Below the pieces are notes generated by a model. It was not told the DNA's origin, did not search any database, and saw only the letters and a program-made list of their open reading frames with translations. Source: Hexactinellida sp. DTS-2022 (lineage: Eukaryota; Porifera; Hexactinellida). Taken from it: 64,000 nt of DNA. How positions within the stretch are numbered: the first letter of the stretch is position 1; every line of letters starts with the position of its first letter. The position numbers and the translations under genes are program-made. The stretch spans positions 434,001-498,000 of the forward strand of contig JAPNXP010000008.1 in assembly GCA_028753945.1 (NCBI GenBank), given 5' to 3'. This document shows, in pieces, positions 27,947-52,275 of this stretch.

Positions 27947-29120
27947 ATGATTTTGTCTAATATTTCTTTATATTTCCTGAGTTATTGTGTACTGATGAAT
28001 CATTCAATACATGTTAAGATGGTACCCGAATTTTTCTGGAAGTATCACCATGGAGGAGACTTTACAAACAAGTGTAATATGTCATGTGTGTTTGCAGAGA
28101 ATCCCTCTCAACCAGATGCCATATTCTTCTTGTCAATGCGTAATAGGCATGTTACTGATGCGATAAGATATGAAACCAACGTCTCCATAAAAATCCTAGG
28201 GACCTGGGAAGCTCAACACTATTATCTATTGCATAATATCCAATTCTTGAACAGGAACTTCCAGGGCACAGCACTCCTTGACTGGACATCAGATATACCA
28301 TGGCTTATGTTGATGGATTATCATCATAATATGCATGGATGATATTAAGGTGATTAAAATGCCAAAAGATCCAGCACCGAAGGTTTCATTCATAGCAAAT
28401 AATTGCGATACAAAAAACAATCGTAGTGAGTATGTGACGGCCATTGATAAATTGTTTGGCGTAGTAGCAATGAGCAGTTGTTTTCATAATACACCATGGC
28501 CACAGTGTGGAGGAAGAAATTGCACAAAGATAGAAGCGATTCGAGGCTATAAAATAAATCTCGCATTTGAGAATGGCGACTCACCCAAATATGTAACGGA
28601 AAAAATTTACGATGCATTCGCAGCTGGTGTGCTGCCAGTGTGGATGGGGACTCGAGACATTGCAGAGGCTGTACCTAAAGGCTCCTACATCGACGTAGCT
28701 AATTTCAATTCCCCGGACGAATTAGCGCAGTATCTTGCATTGGTTCTGTTTGATGTAGATCTCTATATGAGCTACTTTGAATGGAAGTGGAAACCTTTTG
28801 ATAAGGAGTTTTCGGATAGGTTTAGAGTTCTATGGACTGTTCCATTTGAGTGCAGAATGTGTAGATACATTGAGGCCCTACGAAAAGGTTGGAAATGGGA
28901 CCAACTAAAGCAAGTAGCAATTATTCCTGAAGATATTCCAGTTGAGCAAACAATAAACAAGATGCAAGACCAAAAAGTTAGTTTTATGTTACTTGGTGCC
29001 TACCAACATCAATTAGAAAATGATACAATGTTAATTTTCTTCATATTTCTCCCACTTTCAATAACTTTAACTCTATTTCTCATCTTAAAAAAATCTATTG
29101 CAAGGGTTTTTAGATACTAG
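27947..29120 (+). pseudogene. GT10 fucosyltransferase-like gene, frameshifted copy
   Basis: Nearly identical to the open gene on the other arm (31030-32199), but a 4-nt insertion at about 28332-28335 (ATATGCATGGATG instead of ATATGGATG) breaks the frame after codon 129. The first frame ends at 28342. The rest reads on in another frame from 28335 to TAG at 29120 and keeps the GT10 signature FENGDSPKYVTEKIYDAF. The downstream frame could give an N-truncated protein without signal peptide. Probably a recently inactivated gene. Confidence 0.82.
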
Positions 29121-31029: not shown

Positions 31030-32199
31030 CTAGTATCTAAAAACCCTTGCAATAGATTTTTTTAAGATGAGAAATATAGTTAAAGTTATTGAAAGTGGGA
31101 GAAATATGAAGAAAATTAAAATTGTATCATTTTCTAATTGATGTTGGTAGGCTTCAAGTAACATAAAACTAACTTTTTGGTCTTGCATTTTGTTTATTGT
31201 TTGCTCAACTGGAATATCTTCAGGAATAATTGCTACTTGCTTTAGTTGGTCCCATTTCCAACCTTTTCGTAGAGCCTCAACGTATCTACACATTCTGCAC
31301 TCAAATGGAACTGTCCATAGAACTCTAAACCTATCCGCAAACTCCTTATCAAAAGGTTTCCACTTCCATTCAAAGTAGCTCATATAGAGATCTACATCAA
31401 CCAGAACCAATGCAAGATACTGCGCTAATTCGTCCGGGGAATTGAAATTAGCTACATCGATGTAGGAGCCTTTAGGTACAGCCTCTGCAATGTCTCGAGT
31501 CCCCATCCACACTGGCAGTACACCAGCTGCGAATGCATCGTATATTTTTTCCGTTACATATTTGGGTGAGTCGCCATTCTCAAATGCGAGATTTATTTTA
31601 TAGCCTCGAATCGCTTCTATCTTAGTGCAATTTCTTCCTCCACACTGTGGCCATGGTGTATTATGAAAACAACTGCTCATTGCTACTACGCCAAACAATT
31701 TATCAATGGCCATCACATACTCACTACGATTGTTTTTTGTATCGCAATTATTTGCTATGAATGCAACCTTCGGTGCTGGATCTTTTGGCATTTCAATCAC
31801 CTTAATATCATCCATATTATGATGATAATCCATCAACATAAGCCATGGTATATCTGATGTCCAGTCAAGGAGTGCTGTGCCCTGGAAGTTCCTGTTCAAG
31901 AATTGGATATTATGCAATAGATAATAGTGTTGAGCTTCCCAGGTCCCTAGGATTTTTATGGAGACGTTGGTTTCATATCTTATCGCATCAGTAACATGCC
32001 TATTACGCATTGACAAGAAGAATATGGCATCTGGTTGAGAGGGATTCTCTGCTAACACACATGACATATTACACTTGTTTGTAAAGTCTCCTCCATGGTG
32101 ATATTTCCAGAAAAATTCGGGTACCATCTTAACATGTATTGAATGATTCATCAGTACACAATAACTCAGGAAATATAAAGAAATATTAGACAAAATCAT
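31030..32199 (-). CDS. GT10 family (alpha-1,3-fucosyltransferase-like) enzyme
   Basis: 389-residue single-exon protein. Residues 1-21 look like a signal peptide or short N-terminal anchor. The C-terminal half carries the GT10 GDP-fucose-binding signature (FENGDSPKYVTEKIYDAF, residues 206-223, followed by AGVLPVWMG). A Cys-rich motif CRMC lies at 301-304, and a hydrophobic helix at about 360-379 is followed by a short basic tail. Family members transfer fucose from GDP-fucose to GlcNAc in glycans, normally in the Golgi. A C-terminal membrane helix is not the usual type II layout of vertebrate FUTs. N-glycosylation sequons occur (NMS, NVS, NRS, NCT). Closely related to the broken copy on the other arm. 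Confidence 0.82.
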   Translation of the reverse strand: MILSNISLYFLSYCVLMNHSIHVKMVPEFFWKYHHGGDFTNKCNMSCVLAENPSQPDAIFFLSMRNRHVTDAIRYETNVSIKILGTWEAQHYYLLHNIQFLNRNFQGTALLDWTSDIPWLMLMDYHHNMDDIKVIEMPKDPAPKVAFIANNCDTKNNRSEYVMAIDKLFGVVAMSSCFHNTPWPQCGGRNCTKIEAIRGYKINLAFENGDSPKYVTEKIYDAFAAGVLPVWMGTRDIAEAVPKGSYIDVANFNSPDELAQYLALVLVDVDLYMSYFEWKWKPFDKEFADRFRVLWTVPFECRMCRYVEALRKGWKWDQLKQVAIIPEDIPVEQTINKMQDQKVSFMLLEAYQHQLENDTILIFFIFLPLSITLTIFLILKKSIARVFRY

Positions 32200-46776: not shown

Positions 46777-46963
46777 CAGTGGAGCCTCCCATAACGGACA
46801 CTCCAAATAGCGGACAACCTCTAAATAACGGACAACCCTCGTGGCACGGATTTATTTAATTAGCATATGTCTAATAGAAAAGCAACCTCTAAATAGCGGA
46901 CAACCTCTAAATAGCGGACAACGGTTCCGGTCCCAAGGTGCCCGTTGTTCAGAGGCTCTACTG
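46777..46963. mobile_element. MITE, ATAACGGACA family
   Basis: CAGTGGAGCCTCCCATAAC / GTTGTTCAGAGGCTCTACTG, TA-flanked, internal TAGCGGACAACC repeats. Confidence 0.8.
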
Positions 46964-47164
46964 TATACCTTTTCTAATTTAATTTAGAAAGGTAATTTTT
47001 GTAACGGCAAATTCCCTTTACAATATTTGTATATTAAAAAGGTGTTGGCCGATATTTTAGTCAACTATTACTCTAGAATATGAATTAAAATATCGAATAA
47101 AGTTGAATAGAAAATAATTTAATACAACTAATTAAATAACAAAAAATTAAACAATCACACTATC

Positions 47165-47225
47165 AACTCAAAAATCAGATTAAAAGTATGAACGAATCTT
47201 CTACTTCCATCTTCATACAAAGTTA
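47165..47225 (-). promoter_or_regulatory. SECIS element of selenoprotein W gene 1
   Basis: On the minus strand: AUGA, a helix ending GGAAGUA, an AA bulge, a small apical stem-loop, UACUU returning, then UGAU (core 47215-47174). It lies about 45 nt after the stop codon. The helix, AA and quartet positions coincide with those of the other two genes despite sequence change. Confidence 0.8.
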
Positions 47226-47261
47226 TAGCATAATTATTTTTATTATAAACATTTCAAAATT

Positions 47262-47561
47262 TCATTTATTCAACGCTTTTCTTATTGAATCGAAAATCCC
47301 TTTTTTTGTATATTCTTCAAAAGGTAGACCACCAGTTTCCATTTTTGAGAACAAAAGATTGGTGCTTTCACTATCAATAATACTAATTTCAAACTCACCA
47401 GTTATCCCCACAGCTCGCTCCGGCTTAACACTGAAACGATTTTCGCCGAATTCTTTAATTACAAGCGTTTTGAATTGCTCGTAGTATTTGCCGTAGCCTC
47501 ATCCACAGCAGTACTTTATATGGATTTCTATTGCAGGATTTGAGCTAGCCATTCTACTCAT
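47262..47561 (-). CDS. Selenoprotein W family protein, Sec-containing (copy 1)
   Basis: Reads from ATG 47561 to TGA 47264-47262 with an in-frame TGA at 47501-47499 decoded as selenocysteine: 99 residues. Motif KYCCGUGYG (C18-x-x-U21) is the redox CxxU of the SelW/Rdx thioredoxin-like fold. The Gly-rich turn VGITGEFEIS and the hydrophobic strand LLFSKM are in family order. It is about 12 residues longer than typical SelW, by an N-terminal extension (a second ATG at 47552 is possible). Family role: glutathione-linked redox protein, cytosolic. Most divergent of the three paralogues. Confidence 0.88.
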
Positions 47562-47585
47562 GTAATTTCGTTAAAATAATATATA

Positions 47586-47886
47586 CAGTAAAACGGTTAT
47601 TACGAAATTTCAGTTAATACGAACACAATTTCAGTCCCCTTTAAAGCCTTTTCAATACAAATGATATTGGTTAATACGATTTTCCGGCGAATACATTTTG
47701 ACGGTCCCCTGGTGTTCGTACTAACTAACGAGGTTCTACTCTTTAGTACGAACACCAAGGGACCGTAAAAATGTATTCGCTTTATCCAGGATTCGTATTA
47801 ACCAATATGATTTGTATTGAAAAGGCTTTAAGGGGGACTGAAATAGTGTTCGTATTAACCGTATTCGTACTAACGAAGTTCTACTG
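47586..47886. mobile_element. Two MITEs of one family fused head to head
   Basis: CAGTAAAACGGTTATTACG ... GAGGTTCTACT then TTAGTACGAACACC ... GAAGTTCTACTG. The second is the inverse of the first, giving a 301-bp dimer in TA context, 24 bp upstream of selenoprotein W gene 1. Confidence 0.75.
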
Positions 47887-48469
47887 TATTCAGTTTTGCT
47901 TATTATATTATGAACAATATTATTATTTACATTAGAACCTCATTAGTACGAAACGGATAATACGAAATCCTGTTTAAAATTTAAAACTTTCATATAATTC
48001 CAGAATTACTTTACCTTTCCACCTATACCTATAATATTGTAATAGAATATCAATTGACGTTTTCAGCATTTTTCTCAAAATTATGCAAACAATGTTATTT
48101 AATCTAAACCCAAAGTTATTTATTAATTTATCCGTTGTGATGTCAAACAAAAGAATTTGATTAAAACACTGAAGCATTAATCAAGAAGGCGTCTTTAAAT
48201 TAATCGTAGTTGCATGTGTTGTAATGGTGTAAAAACCTTGTGATTAAATTATGTCCGTACCAACCAACGTACTTTAGTAATCAGTCACTTATGACTACAT
48301 TTGTTCCAGGAATGGGTCAGTCATTTTTCAATGGGCAGAGCAAAGAGCATGCTTGCTTGAATGTATTTCATTTTTTTCAAATTTGTTAATTACGTATTTA
48401 TTCTTTCTATACAAACTCCATACTTGATTATGTTTGAATGCACTTTGTCAATAATTCACTGTGAAAATA

Positions 48470-48624
48470 CAGTGAACTCCCGTTATAATGAAGTCGGATA
48501 TAATGAATTAACCGCTTATAACGAATTGGATATTTTCCCAGAGCACTAAATGCATTAATTATTATCCGCTTATAACGAAGGAATTTAGAGGTCCCAAGCA
48601 CTTCGTTATAACGAGAGTTGACTA
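48470..48624. mobile_element. TA-type MITE, CCGCTTATAACGA family
   Basis: CAGTGAACTCCCGTTATAATG ... CGTTATAACGAGAGTTGACT. Confidence 0.75.
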
Positions 48625-49065
48625 TAAATGACATTTGTAGATTGAAAAGAGGAAAATTTTAAATTTAGGAGCGTTATCGTGCTCTGTCCAAAATTGAGAA
48701 ATTGACCGTGAGTACATAAACTTAATTTTCCTAAGGAACTATTTTGAAATTAACTAAAATATATTTTGATCTTGGATTTAGGGTGGATTTGGAATGTTCT
48801 ATAAACAATCCCTATAATTACGAATTAATGATTTGTTGTTAATCATAATTTAGTTGAAAAAGTGAGTTTCAAATTTAGACTCTCTCTCTCTCAGTGTAAC
48901 ACTGTTACAAATAGGTGCAGTTATGAGTCAATGGAGCTGCTATAACATTATATCTCACCCAGATTAGTCAATAGGGAGATTCGAAAGCTCTATAATTATT
49001 ACTGTGCCGCTATATACTATAGTATAGTGGCCCAGTTCTATTTTTACAATCTCAAATAAATTATA

Positions 49066-49141
49066 AATACTGCTTTCGGCTCAGTATTGTAGAGAGTTTG
49101 TGGCTCACACAAACTTATATAGCATTTGAAAATTATTTATA
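49066..49141 (-). other. TATA-plus-hairpin module, copy 4
   Basis: Hairpin AATACTG-CTTTCGGCT-CAGTATT at 49066-49088, minus-strand TATAAATA at 49141-49134, GTGTGAGCC between. Five kilobases away from the other copies, with a different flank. Confidence 0.5.
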
Positions 49142-49352
49142 CTCGAAATATACAAATTTTAAGTGTTTATGGTTAATTTATAACTTATTTACGCTTACTA
49201 GGATTCATTCACATCTAAAGTTTCTAAACCGAATACAGACATTTAAATGCACGACTATTTGATACACGATATACGTACTAATTAAACCCATCTCATGTAG
49301 CAAATCGTCGTTTATGTCACGTATCGACTTGTTTATATCGAAATGTCATGTA

Positions 49353-49579
49353 CAGTCAAGGTCTGCTTATTGGAACAACTTTTCGTCTGCTTAATATGAA
49401 GTTTTATTATTATGAACAAGCCTTATGGTCCCAATTTAACAACTTACATAGGGTTTGTATTGAATGAATGAATGAATTAATGAAATTAATGAGTTCGCTT
49501 ATTATCAAGTCACGTCTCTATTATTAACACATTCTTTGGTCCCTTGAATGTTAATATTCAAATTAAAAGAACCTGCCTG
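49353..49579. mobile_element. TA-type MITE, GTCTGCTTATT family
   Basis: CAGTCAAGGTCTGCTTATTG ... AAGAACCTGCCTG; ends partly degenerate. Confidence 0.65.
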
Positions 49580-49654
49580 TAGTTCTAGTTGATAAAGTAG
49601 AATAAACTAACGAAATAGCAGAATACAGAATAGACCACAAAAAACAATAAGAAC

Positions 49655-49723
49655 CTAACTATCGAACATATAAAATCAGATTGGAAGTATGACTGAGTCT
49701 TCTACTTCTATCGTCACAGTTAG
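49655..49723 (-). promoter_or_regulatory. SECIS element of selenoprotein W gene 2
   Basis: Minus strand: basal stem CUAACU/AGUUAG, 5' quartet GUGAC, helix with GAAGUA/UACUUC, AA in the apical bulge, mini-stem GAC-UCA-GUC (form II), 3' quartet UGAU at 49678-49675. It starts about 67 nt after the stop codon. Confidence 0.88.
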
Positions 49724-49789
49724 TTTGATAGCTAATGTTACGAACTGTATTGGAGTATACCCTGTAGACTACTGGAAGGAAGCTGGCTA

Positions 49790-50056
49790 TTACAACAGCT
49801 TAGCTAAAGATTCTTTTACTAGTGCAAAATCTGCATCAACAGGAAATTTGTTTTCATTAGCCTTCTTTGAGTAGATTAGTTCACCACCGCATTTCACATC
49901 AAAGTTCCCTGTAATCGCTGGGTCAACTATGGCATTTACTTTGAATTTCTTAGGGAATGCCTCCTCAACAGCCTTTACAAACCTATTGTAGCGACTGGCA
50001 TAGCCTCATCCACTACAATATTCAACTATAATCTCAATAGGATCTCTTTCTGCCAT
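49790..50056 (-). CDS. SELENOW: Selenoprotein W (copy 2)
   Basis: 88 residues from ATG 50056 to TAA 49792-49790, with TGA at 50008-50006 read as selenocysteine: VEYCSGUGYASRYNRF holds C14-x-x-U17. The body follows the SelW pattern: hydrophobic VEEAFPKKF strand, ITGNFDV turn, ELIYSKK strand, C-terminal helix AKLL. Length equals vertebrate SelW (~87). Without recoding, the longest frames here are shadow frames on the other strand. Sister of copy 3; their 3' flanks with SECIS are nearly identical for about 100 bp. Confidence 0.93.
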
Positions 50057-50355
50057 TAGACTTGTAGGAGAAAAATTGAATTCCAGTAATATTGGTAACT
50101 AAATAAAGCTTATTCTATCATCTAAATTCATAATTAACTTTTGTAATCCGACTAATTTAGTGCCTATACTCATGAGAGAGTAATAAAATCCCTTAGAATA
50201 TTCTAGAATATATTTTGATAATGATAAGGGTACTTAGAAATTTTAAAATTTGTAAGACAAAAGGATTGCTGGGGGTAAAAATAAGTAAGGGTCACGAAAG
50301 TTAGAGATTAGTGTACGATATATTTTGGGACGCAAATTGATATATGTACGTACAG

Positions 50356-50799
50356 CAGGGTTGCCGTGGGAATGGAATTTCCGTTCCCATTCCCATCCCA
50401 TTCCCATAGGAATCCTGTGGAATCCCCATGGGAATCCCCATAGGAATCCTGTGGGAATCCCCATGGGGATCCCCATGGGAATCCCCATAAGGAATCCTCA
50501 TGGGTTATTCAAACTGAATAGGGGAGTATAATATATACATAAAAACGAATTTAATTACTAGAGGAGATTCGTATCAATAGTAATGTCTATATTAATTAAG
50601 GATGACTTAATGAAACCATATTCGAATATCCCATGGGGATTCCCACGGGATTCCTATGGGGATCCCCACAGGATTCCAATGGGGATCCCCACAGGATTCC
50701 AATGGGGATCCCCACAGGAGAAAATCTGATTCCCATTCCCATCCCATTCCCATGGGTATGGGGATCCCCATGGGAATTCCCATACCCACGGCAACCCTG
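50356..50799. mobile_element. hAT-type element with CCATGGGGAT repeat interior, 8-bp TSD
   Basis: TIRs CAGGGTTGCCGTGGG / CCCACGGCAACCCTG, perfect 8-bp duplication ACGTACAG (50348-50355, 50800-50807). The interior has GGAATCCCCATGGGGATCCC-like repeats in two blocks (50390-50510, 50630-50770). Confidence 0.88.
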
Positions 50800-50804
50800 A
50801 CGTA

Positions 50805-50983
50805 CAGTGAACTCCTTTTATAACAAAGTCGGATGTTACGAAATATTCGCTTATAACGAAATGGACATTTTCCCCCAAGAGCACTGCACTAAATGCATTA
50901 ATTATTATCTGCTTATAACGAATATCTGGATATAACGAAGGAATTTACAGGTCCCAAGCATTCGTTATAACGAGAGTTCGCTG
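50805..50983. mobile_element. TA-type MITE, CCGCTTATAACGA family
   Basis: CAGTGAACTCCTTTTATAAC ... ATAACGAGAGTTCGCTG. Its first bases CAG are part of the hAT target duplication, so the hAT element inserted at its left end. Confidence 0.78.
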
Positions 50984-51175
50984 TACTAGAGTCTATTTTT
51001 TCAATAATAAAAATTTGAACTATAATATTTGCCTCGCCCCCCCAAAAAAGGGTATACTCATCTAGTCGATTTATTGCAGGAACCTAATAATGGCAGTAAT
51101 AACTATATCTAGTAAAGTATAATTTTACTAACGAAATAGCAGAATACAGAATAAACCACCAAAAACAATAAGAAC

Positions 51176-51244
51176 CTAACTATCGAACATATAAAATCAG
51201 ATTGGAAGTATGACTGAGTCTTCTACTTCTATCATCACAGCTAG
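51176..51244 (-). promoter_or_regulatory. SECIS element of selenoprotein W gene 3
   Basis: Same architecture as the element at 49655: 5' quartet GUGAU (around 51237-51234), GAAGUA/UACUUC helix, AA bulge, GAC-UCA-GUC mini-stem, UGAU at 51199-51196. Confidence 0.88.
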
Positions 51245-51310
51245 TTTGATAGCTAATGTTACGAACTGTATTGGAGTATACCCTGTAGACTACTGGAAGG
51301 AAGCTGGCTA

Positions 51311-51574
51311 TTACAACAGCTTAGCTAAAGCTTCTTTAGCTGGTGCATAATCTGCATCAACAGGAAACTTGCCAGTTGATTTCTTTGAGTAGACTACGAC
51401 GTCACCGTGTTTGACTTCAAAATTCCCTGTAATCCCTTGGTCAATGATGGCATTGACATTGAACTTCCCAGGGAAGTCCGCGTTAACAGCCGCGACAAAC
51501 TTGTTGAAGCGGCTGGTGTAGCCTCATCCGCCACAGTATTGAACAGAAATATTATGAACGCTTGCGTCTGCCAT
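51311..51574 (-). CDS. SELENOW: Selenoprotein W (copy 3)
   Basis: 87 residues from ATG 51574 to TAA 51313-51311, with TGA at 51526-51524 as selenocysteine in VQYCGGUGYTSRFNKF (C14-x-x-U17). The closest of the three to canonical SelW length and pattern (GITGNFEV, VVYSKKSTGKFPVD). Near-identical 3' flank to copy 2 indicates tandem duplication of about 1.5 kb. Cytosolic redox role by family. Lies inside intron 2 of the coiled-coil gene on the opposite strand. Confidence 0.93.
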
Positions 51575-51954
51575 TGTAGTTGAGCGTGAAAGTCAGATAA
51601 ATTGATTCAATTCGAATAGATAATAATGAGTAAGATAAAGATAGATTATGTCCAATAGACTGTATATTCACTTTTATAGTCTGACTAAGCCTACTATTCA
51701 TGAGAAAGTATAATACAATACATTAGAAATATGCTAATTTCTAGAATGGAATTCATGTTTACGTAAAATGAATTAGCTAATCAAATTAATTGTGATACTA
51801 ATATTAGTATCACAGTTAATTTGATTATTAGTCACTTGCAGTGATGATTATAATTATTATACTTTATATTATGGCATTACTAATTCCTATCACAGTTGTA
51901 ATGCTAATTTAACAAATTTAATTGAAAGTAAACTAACGAATAAGCAGACATTCA

Positions 51955-52125
51955 AGTAATTATCCAGGAGCGTGAGATGCTCCTTTTGGAGTATGATTTT
52001 TTGGATAATATTAATTAGGAGCCGCGAAAATTTGGAATCTTCTCCTATACCGTAACAATTTGTGATTTAGGCGTATGAAAATTGGTTCAGACCAGGATTA
52101 GGAGCGTAATTACAAATGGCTGTAC
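51955..52125. repeat. Dispersed repeat (CAGGAGCG family), copy 2
   Basis: ATTATCCAGGAGCGTGAGATG ... GATTAGGAGCGTAATTACAAATGG, as at 46046. Confidence 0.65.
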
Positions 52126-52161
52126 ACTGCAGACAGACAATGTTGTCCTATTGGTTATCAA

Positions 52162-52275
52162 CTAACTTGTGACAATAGAATTAGAAGACTCATACTTATT
52201 TTAAATGTTCAATGGTTAGGTTCTTATTGTTTTTGGGTGGACTATTCTGAATTCTGGTCTTAATTCGTTAGTTAA
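52162..52275 (+). pseudogene. Orphan SECIS / SelW 3'-UTR relic
   Basis: Plus-strand copy of the SelW 3' flank: CTAACTTGTGACAATAGAAT, AGAAGACTCATACTTATT, then GGTTAGGTTCTTATTGTTTT and ATTCGTTAGTT. The 3' UGAU is gone and no SelW coding sequence precedes it, so it is a decayed inverted duplicate. Confidence 0.65.

Follow-up and report, generated by a model that had tools for sequence, protein, structure and literature searches.

In this study, we describe a family of selenoprotein W (SelW)-type genes on one contig of Hexactinellida sp. DTS-2022 (Porifera; JAPNXP010000008.1 of assembly GCA_028753945.1, labeled C17 here). The window, meaning the whole stretch of 64,000 nucleotides (nt) that was analyzed (positions 434,001 to 498,000 of the forward strand), carries three minus-strand genes, B1, B2, and B3, each of which contains one internal in-frame TGA and attains its full length only if this codon is read as selenocysteine (Sec, U). 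We propose, at a probability of about 0.72, that these genes belong to a SelW selenoprotein family with a shared selenocysteine insertion sequence (SECIS) cassette in the 3' untranslated region (3'UTR), and that this family would include two five-Sec members, M1 and M2, located outside the window. Reading frames, homology, the sequence and fold of the SECIS elements, the genes of the Sec machinery, and constraint on the coding regions are shown here, and from them we infer translation, conversion of the cassette, and protein function.

Taken by themselves, B1, B2, and B3 are almost certainly selenoprotein genes whose UGA would be translated. They are apparently single-exon genes in which the UGA of the CxxU redox motif would be decoded as Sec by the eukaryotic machinery of the host, directed by the SECIS element in each 3'UTR. 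Ordinary gene callers are likely to miss or shorten such genes.

Three candidate SelW-type selenoprotein genes

Each gene had been predicted to give a full-length SelW-type protein only through an in-frame TGA read as Sec, always in a YCxGUGY context, and this holds for all three (Table 1), the recoded proteins exceeding the cut-offs of both family profile hidden Markov models in three of three cases. With U typed as C, the E-values for B1, B2, and B3 were 1.8e-13, 5.8e-14, and 2.8e-10 with Pfam Rdx (PF10262), and 8.2e-16, 1e-14, and 9.3e-12 with TIGR02174. A six-frame scan of the whole genome (112.4 Mb, 18 contigs) with PF10262 recovered the same frames, each with one TGA inside. It returned six matches, all on C17, namely the window trio (trio B) and A1, A2, and A3 (trio A) at 414-419 kb, and the family signal was also over threshold in 2 of 14 control genomes. 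Separately, SelT/W/H-type matches under the family cut-off, with one in-frame TGA each, were seen at C18:707779-707889 and C7:3383969-3384190.

In single-sequence searches, the best solved relative of B1, B2, and B3 was C17orf37/Rdx12 (2ljk; E 1.4e-6, 9e-8, and 1.8e-6, respectively). The SelW structure 2npb was matched by B1 (1.1e-4) and B2 (4.9e-7) and barely by B3 (0.61). Since its match to 2npb is weak while that to 2ljk is good, B3 may belong to the SelW2/Rdx12 branch. A profile made from five proteins (B1, B2, B3, M1, and M2) had SelW 2npb as its best match (9.3e-10). At the level of sequence, the three products would be redox proteins of the SelW type with Sec in the CxxU motif.

The genome uses TGA as a normal stop codon. 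It ends seven of the ten window open reading frames (ORFs) that were picked, six of these seven being related NHL genes, and an altered code with TGA as a sense codon throughout was ruled out on this count. In B3 and its copy A3, TGA apparently serves as the terminator as well as the Sec codon. If B3 were read past this TGA it would stop at 47223, within helix I of its SECIS element, and for that reason the TGA shortly 5' of the SECIS was taken as the terminator. It deserves remark because, according to the available part of one survey, virtually no TGA serves as terminator in selenoprotein genes (PMC3473315). With regard to the decoding machinery, the genome contains a Sec tRNA (tRNA-Sec; 75.8 bits, above the gathering score of 47, UCA anticodon by eye, with four more matches below), a SepSecS gene (E 2.8e-126), and domain III of eEFSec (E 4.7e-34), the last of which was over its cut-off in none of the 14 control genomes.

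SECIS elements downstream of the genes

By eye and by folding, each 3'UTR contains a basal helix, UGA quartets, a helix of about 9 bp, and AA followed by an apical mini-helix. A custom grammar composed of UGA quartets, helix II, an unpaired AA, and helix I gave six candidates on the two strands of the 64-kb window, the best three of which lie directly behind B1, B2, and B3 at -16.6 to -17.3 kcal/mol; from 200 dinucleotide shuffles of the window, 0.01 candidates are expected at or below -16 kcal/mol. Over both strands of 204 kb of C17 (30 + 90 + 84 kb), the grammar gave 24 candidates, exactly eight of which score -9 or less; these lie immediately behind the eight family genes, one per gene. M1 and M2 account for one each, in the 234-264 kb portion of C17. 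The B3 element differs from that of A3 by one base, and the free-energy z-scores of this type are strong (-3.28 for B3 and -3.41 for A3).

A duplicated trio

The local cluster of three genes was confirmed, and it occurs twice on the contig, in addition to the two five-TGA relatives. Trio A is a near-copy of trio B, about 67 kb upstream. Self-comparison of C17 344-518 kb (matches of at least 600 nt) showed collinear blocks, with about 400-436 kb facing 464-503 kb; 7 of the 12 blocks are 94-97% identical, the full range is 87-98%, and the ends lie within arrays of NHL-repeat genes. In window coordinates, the duplication covers about 30000-64000 and beyond. Coding changes between the copies are two synonymous and no others for A2/B2, three and none for A3/B3, and about 4.8 and 2.2 for A1/B1. 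We count this mostly synonymous pattern as constraint, which supports the window genes being real.

It comes close to an even chance that trios A and B are two haplotypes of one locus laid in tandem by the assembler, in which case there would be three genes plus M1 and M2, not six. The collinear blocks at 87-98% identity ending in repetitive NHL arrays fit such an artifact, as does a synonymous divergence (dS) of merely 0.04-0.09 between the trios. However, a true duplication by unequal crossover between NHL genes predicts the same picture, and the two copies are unlike in the distances between their genes and in their insertions, although alleles can differ likewise.

One 3'UTR cassette in six genes

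Positions 49606-49850 and 51127-51371, which include the 3'UTR tracts of B2 and B1, are 96% identical. Across the whole genome, a 150-nt probe from the B1 3'UTR matched A1, A2, B1, B2, M1, and M2 at 99-100% identity, and two inverted relics at 76-77%. A dispersed repeat was ruled out as the source of the tract, given that these eight matches are six at genes plus two relics. Identity among the 15 gene pairs is 94-99% in the first 190 alignment columns. The tract starts abruptly at the stop codon and continues for about 178 nt, after which pairs of different genes drop to 32-45%. Within the first 147 nt, one or two differences were found in each of the five pairs counted among B1, B2, M1, and M2. 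The 3'UTR of A3 and B3 is quite different and has little in common with the cassette beyond the SECIS.

The coding regions present another picture. Between different genes, their dS ranges from 0.44 to saturation, and the ratio of nonsynonymous to synonymous divergence (dN/dS) is below 1 for M1/M2, B1/M1, and B1/M2. The 300 nt 5' of the ATG show a likeness of 37-46% when a B-type gene is compared with an M-type gene, and of 57-61% within the B1/B2 type and M1/M2. As read from their sequences, the six coding regions are old paralogues despite the near-identical cassette. Because the 3'UTRs are so similar while the dS of the coding regions is high and the downstream flanks are unlike, it seems probable that gene conversion would homogenize the cassette of about 178 nt in the six genes, leaving out A3 and B3, with the coding regions diverging under constraint. 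The relic at 52150-52234, at 77% identity and with no SECIS fold, gives our picture of a cassette without such upkeep.

Two other explanations of the common 3'UTR were weighed. It is unlikely that purifying selection over the whole tract, and not conversion, keeps it alike. The sharp start at the stop codon would agree with selection, and 3'UTR elements beyond the SECIS have been argued to exert control, in the portion of that paper available (PMC9337670). However, A3 and B3 do with another 3'UTR, so that constancy over most of the 178 nt is not required, and two cassette sites separated by 7 nt show all four combinations across the six genes, which fits exchange, although one site is a CpG and recurrent mutation there is possible. 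Much less probable still is that the paralogues are recent, the 3'UTR being young and the coding regions having diverged rapidly by positive selection. Low 3'UTR divergence beside divergent coding regions would be expected of such genes, but synonymous divergence of the coding regions is high as well, the downstream flanks are unlike, and dN/dS is below 1 in the three comparisons named above, if not clearly so for B1/B2. Conversion thus remains our preferred reading of the cassette.

The five-TGA relatives M1 and M2

A genome search with B1 found eight places, including C17:251097-251345 (M1) and 254106-254345 (M2) with five TGAs inside each; a search with M1 found six places, none of them additional. 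M1 and M2 form an inverted pair that lies upstream of trio B at a distance of about 230 kb, and neither has a TAA or TAG ahead of its terminal TAG. The predicted proteins begin with MADANVNNLTVKCURUUUKUKSRYDKF... (M1) and MAEVKAINLTVKCUCUCUUUKSRYDKF... (M2). The CxxU site is replaced, by CURUUUKUK in M1 and CUCUCUUUK in M2, and for this reason both are classed as SelW-derived and not as SelW proper. Common descent with the SelW genes is supported by the common 3'UTR and by pairwise identity to B1 (46% over the full length with E 3e-23 for M1, 43% with 5e-19 for M2).

Several features are common to the pair. The dN/dS between them is 0.44 (bootstrap 0.21-0.86; P(dN>=dS) 0.0075; TGA codons excluded), and the sequence TATATAAATA, a promoter-like box, was found by eye about 112-114 nt 5' of both ATG codons. 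The two genes have four TGAs in common at alternate codons, where 0 of 12 bases differ, whereas the three intervening codons differ at 5 of 9 bases (Fisher 0.006), in a test whose four codons are not independent and which slippage can blur. An 18-base TGC-TGA string of the TGA run has three matches in the genome, two of them overlapping, all in M1 and M2. In the alignment each has a CxxxxC pair, which B1, B2, and B3 are without, and which we take to stand about where human SelW has Cys37. An antisense gene at M1, where one antisense frame is open, was ruled out, the same frame in M2 having one TAA and one TAG.

We lean towards M1 and M2 making a multi-Sec protein. The CxxU site would have grown to five Sec codons by in-frame TGA/TGC expansion, and the product would carry a cluster of selenols on a fold derived from SelW. 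Because every second residue of an extended strand points the same way, the four Sec residues of a UxUxUxU motif would share one face, much as in the CxC arrays of metallothioneins. The cluster is likely to function in selenium storage, soft-metal binding, or as a multi-selenol redox relay, and we weakly favor storage or soft-metal binding over catalysis. In its most specific form the proposal is tentative: M1 and M2 would be translated selenium-cluster proteins in which one catalytic Sec codon has multiplied to five UGAs, three of them consecutive, with one SECIS each; UxUxUxU would be kept as the selenol counterpart of the metallothionein CxC arrays; and the SECIS cassette would be maintained by conversion with single-Sec paralogues 160-230 kb away.

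Weight of the evidence

Several results count against the proposed family. The original prediction of a SECIS-like hairpin behind each gene is supported, the grammar ranking the three elements first, but this grammar was tuned with knowledge of the B1, B2, and B3 elements after two earlier versions had missed them, and Rfam SECIS_1 had no match in the window, nor at E<=10 in 46800-52200. Across the genome at E<=10, SECIS_1 matched seven places, one of them over the cut-off and none at these genes. Free-energy z-scores are weak for the shared SECIS type (-0.94 for B1, -1.19 for B2, and -1.18 for a third sequence), the unconstrained fold of the B3 type pairs the apical AA, which can be opened at a price of some 2.4 kcal/mol to the inner stem, and covariation gave no pair changed on both sides among five distinct rows of too low diversity. 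The tRNA-Sec and SepSecS models were also over their cut-offs in 5 and 3 of the 14 control genomes, respectively. As for the history of the genes, dN/dS is not clearly below 1 for B1/B2 (0.30-1.22), and the closer upstream likeness within B1/B2 and within M1/M2 indicates that the duplications were not equally old.

Other such results concern M1 and M2. The chance of a frame of 81-84 codons without TAA or TAG is 0.013-0.016 at window frequencies, which is not small. M1 falls under both family cut-offs (15.7 bits against 22.6 for Pfam Rdx, 25.4 against 34.2 for TIGR02174) and M2 matches neither model at E<=1, failures that we ascribe to the loss of the CxxU site. Each gene has a single SECIS in 234-264 kb of C17, unlike human SELENOP, for which two are described (PMC9337670). 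The TGA run itself is a simple repeat of TGA and TGC, and slippage in a decaying gene could produce it.

This last point leads to the main rival of a multi-Sec protein, decay by repeat expansion, which we regard as a serious possibility, though well short of even odds. M1 and M2 would then be decaying SelW copies in which a TGA microsatellite has spread over the active site, translation ends at the first UGA, and what follows is a mere remnant, leaving B1, B2, and B3 as ordinary single-Sec genes. Besides the repeat and the failure of the family profiles to recognize M2, the presence in the window of a 3'UTR-cassette relic without a visible gene agrees with decay. However, the bodies of M1 and M2 keep their frame under the constraint described above, both genes keep the start, the promoter-like box, the terminal stop, and the SECIS cassette, and the true relic is down to 77% identity without a SECIS fold. 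We therefore still prefer the multi-Sec reading of M1 and M2.

Other features of the window

The coordinates of the family features are given in Table 1. Elsewhere in the window, positions 790-27233 and beyond hold an array of single-exon, open NHL-repeat genes (Pfam NHL in the one tested); in four copies, an additional ORF of 136 codons is retained in a different frame. Two very similar, inverted fucosyltransferase-type genes lie at 27947-29120 (plus strand) and 31030-32199 (minus strand), with Glyco_transf_10 for the part tested; the copy at 27947-29120 is split into two frames. Between B1 and B2, at 50392-50789, there are dense palindromic repeats of the GGGGATCCCCAT type with many weak Rfam microRNA matches. 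The list of Rfam matches at E<=10 in 46800-52200 (31 rows, no SECIS) is headed by hits to the GGGGATCCCCAT repeats and a palindrome, which were taken to be spurious.

Table 1. Predicted features of the SelW-type family (window coordinates unless C17 is given)
Feature	Position	Strand	Remarks
B1, SelW-type selenoprotein gene	51311..51574	-	87 aa; Sec TGA 51524-51526, YCGGUGY; stop TAA
B2, SelW-type selenoprotein gene	49790..50056	-	88 aa; Sec TGA 50006-50008, YCSGUGY; stop TAA
B3, SelW-family selenoprotein gene	47262..47552	-	96 aa; Sec TGA 47499-47501, YCCGUGY; apparent terminator TGA 47262-47264
SECIS of B1	51175..51257	-	Helix I, UGA quartets, helix II, AA bulge with apical mini-helix; tied second of six in window
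SECIS of B2	49654..49736	-	Near-identical to B1 element; tied second of six in window
SECIS of B3	47152..47234	-	Own sequence type; same architecture if apical AA held open; first of six in window
3'UTR tract of B1, ~178 nt	51133..51310	-	Common to six of eight genes; 3' edge approximate
3'UTR tract of B2	49612..49789	-	Shared tract; 3' edge approximate
Relic of SECIS/3'UTR cassette	52150..52234	+	77% identical, inverted; no SelW frame beside it by eye; no SECIS fold
M1 (locus L028)	C17:251091-251345	-	SelW-derived frame, five in-frame TGAs, terminal TAG; outside window
M2 (locus L029)	C17:254106-254351	+	SelW-derived frame, five in-frame TGAs, terminal TAG; outside window

Comparison with known selenoproteins

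SELENOW (PF10262; 2npb) has the size of the window genes and a CxxU near the N-terminus, and B1 and B2 match it by sequence. It differs in that the window genes are an apparently single-exon trio, two with a common SECIS cassette, and that M1 and M2 carry a putative five-Sec cluster in place of CxxU. SelW2/Rdx12 (C17orf37, MIEN1; 2ljk) is the best solved match of B1, B2, and B3. SelW2 is described as a Sec protein in fish and frog (PMC3316567), whereas Rdx12 has Cys where the window genes would have Sec, and B3 apparently also has a TGA terminator. The tandem arrangement, which had been called unusual, is present but less so than was claimed, since SelW2a and SelW2b of zebrafish are reported to stand in tandem (PMC3316567). 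They likewise are SelW-family selenoprotein genes; they differ in being two, and the available text of that paper mentions neither a homogenized common 3'UTR nor a multi-Sec member. Invertebrate selenoprotein gene clusters and a duplicated SECIS have also been described, and a table in the accessible part of the same source lists one SelW gene in the sponge Amphimedon and three in Lottia (PMC3473315). The tandem cluster by itself is modest news. A SECIS cassette common to old paralogues would exemplify concerted evolution of a recoding signal apart from the coding region.

Among proteins with several Sec residues, amphioxus SELENOW is a SelW whose redox motif likewise holds more than a single Sec; as far as the available text of the papers goes, it has two in UxxU, none consecutive, as opposed to five in M1 and M2 (PMC3473315; PMC7539508). 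An algal PDI_e with GUGUU, called the first selenoprotein with two consecutive Sec residues, is likewise thioredoxin-like with consecutive Sec codons, but it is a PDI and not a SelW, and the part of the paper at hand gives it three Sec, at most two in a row, compared with five, three in a row, here (PMC7539508). In a limited search of the literature, no SelW with five Sec or three consecutive Sec was found. With five Sec residues, the SelW-derived members would represent a known redox protein in a form of unusual selenium density. Translation of M1 and M2, if it occurs, would mean that one SECIS suffices for the decoding of three successive UGAs as Sec. This would bear directly on processive Sec decoding and provide a compact test case outside SELENOP, and it would show that a Sec-rich protein can arise by repeat expansion of a catalytic Sec codon.

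SELENOP is like M1 and M2 in packing several Sec codons in one protein, and its tail presumably has UxU spacing as they do. SELENOP has been reported with up to 133 Sec in a bivalve (PMC8744743). It differs in its thioredoxin-like domain, Sec-rich C-terminus, role as a plasma selenium carrier, and, by the available account, two SECIS elements in humans, as against one in each M gene (PMC9337670). M1 and M2 have no SelP family match in Pfam, and a search of the genome with SelP_N gave none, this model being silent in every control genome too. Finally, metallothionein offers a likeness in possible mode of action, by pattern alone, in that the alternating UxUxUxU of M1 and M2 resembles its CxC arrays.

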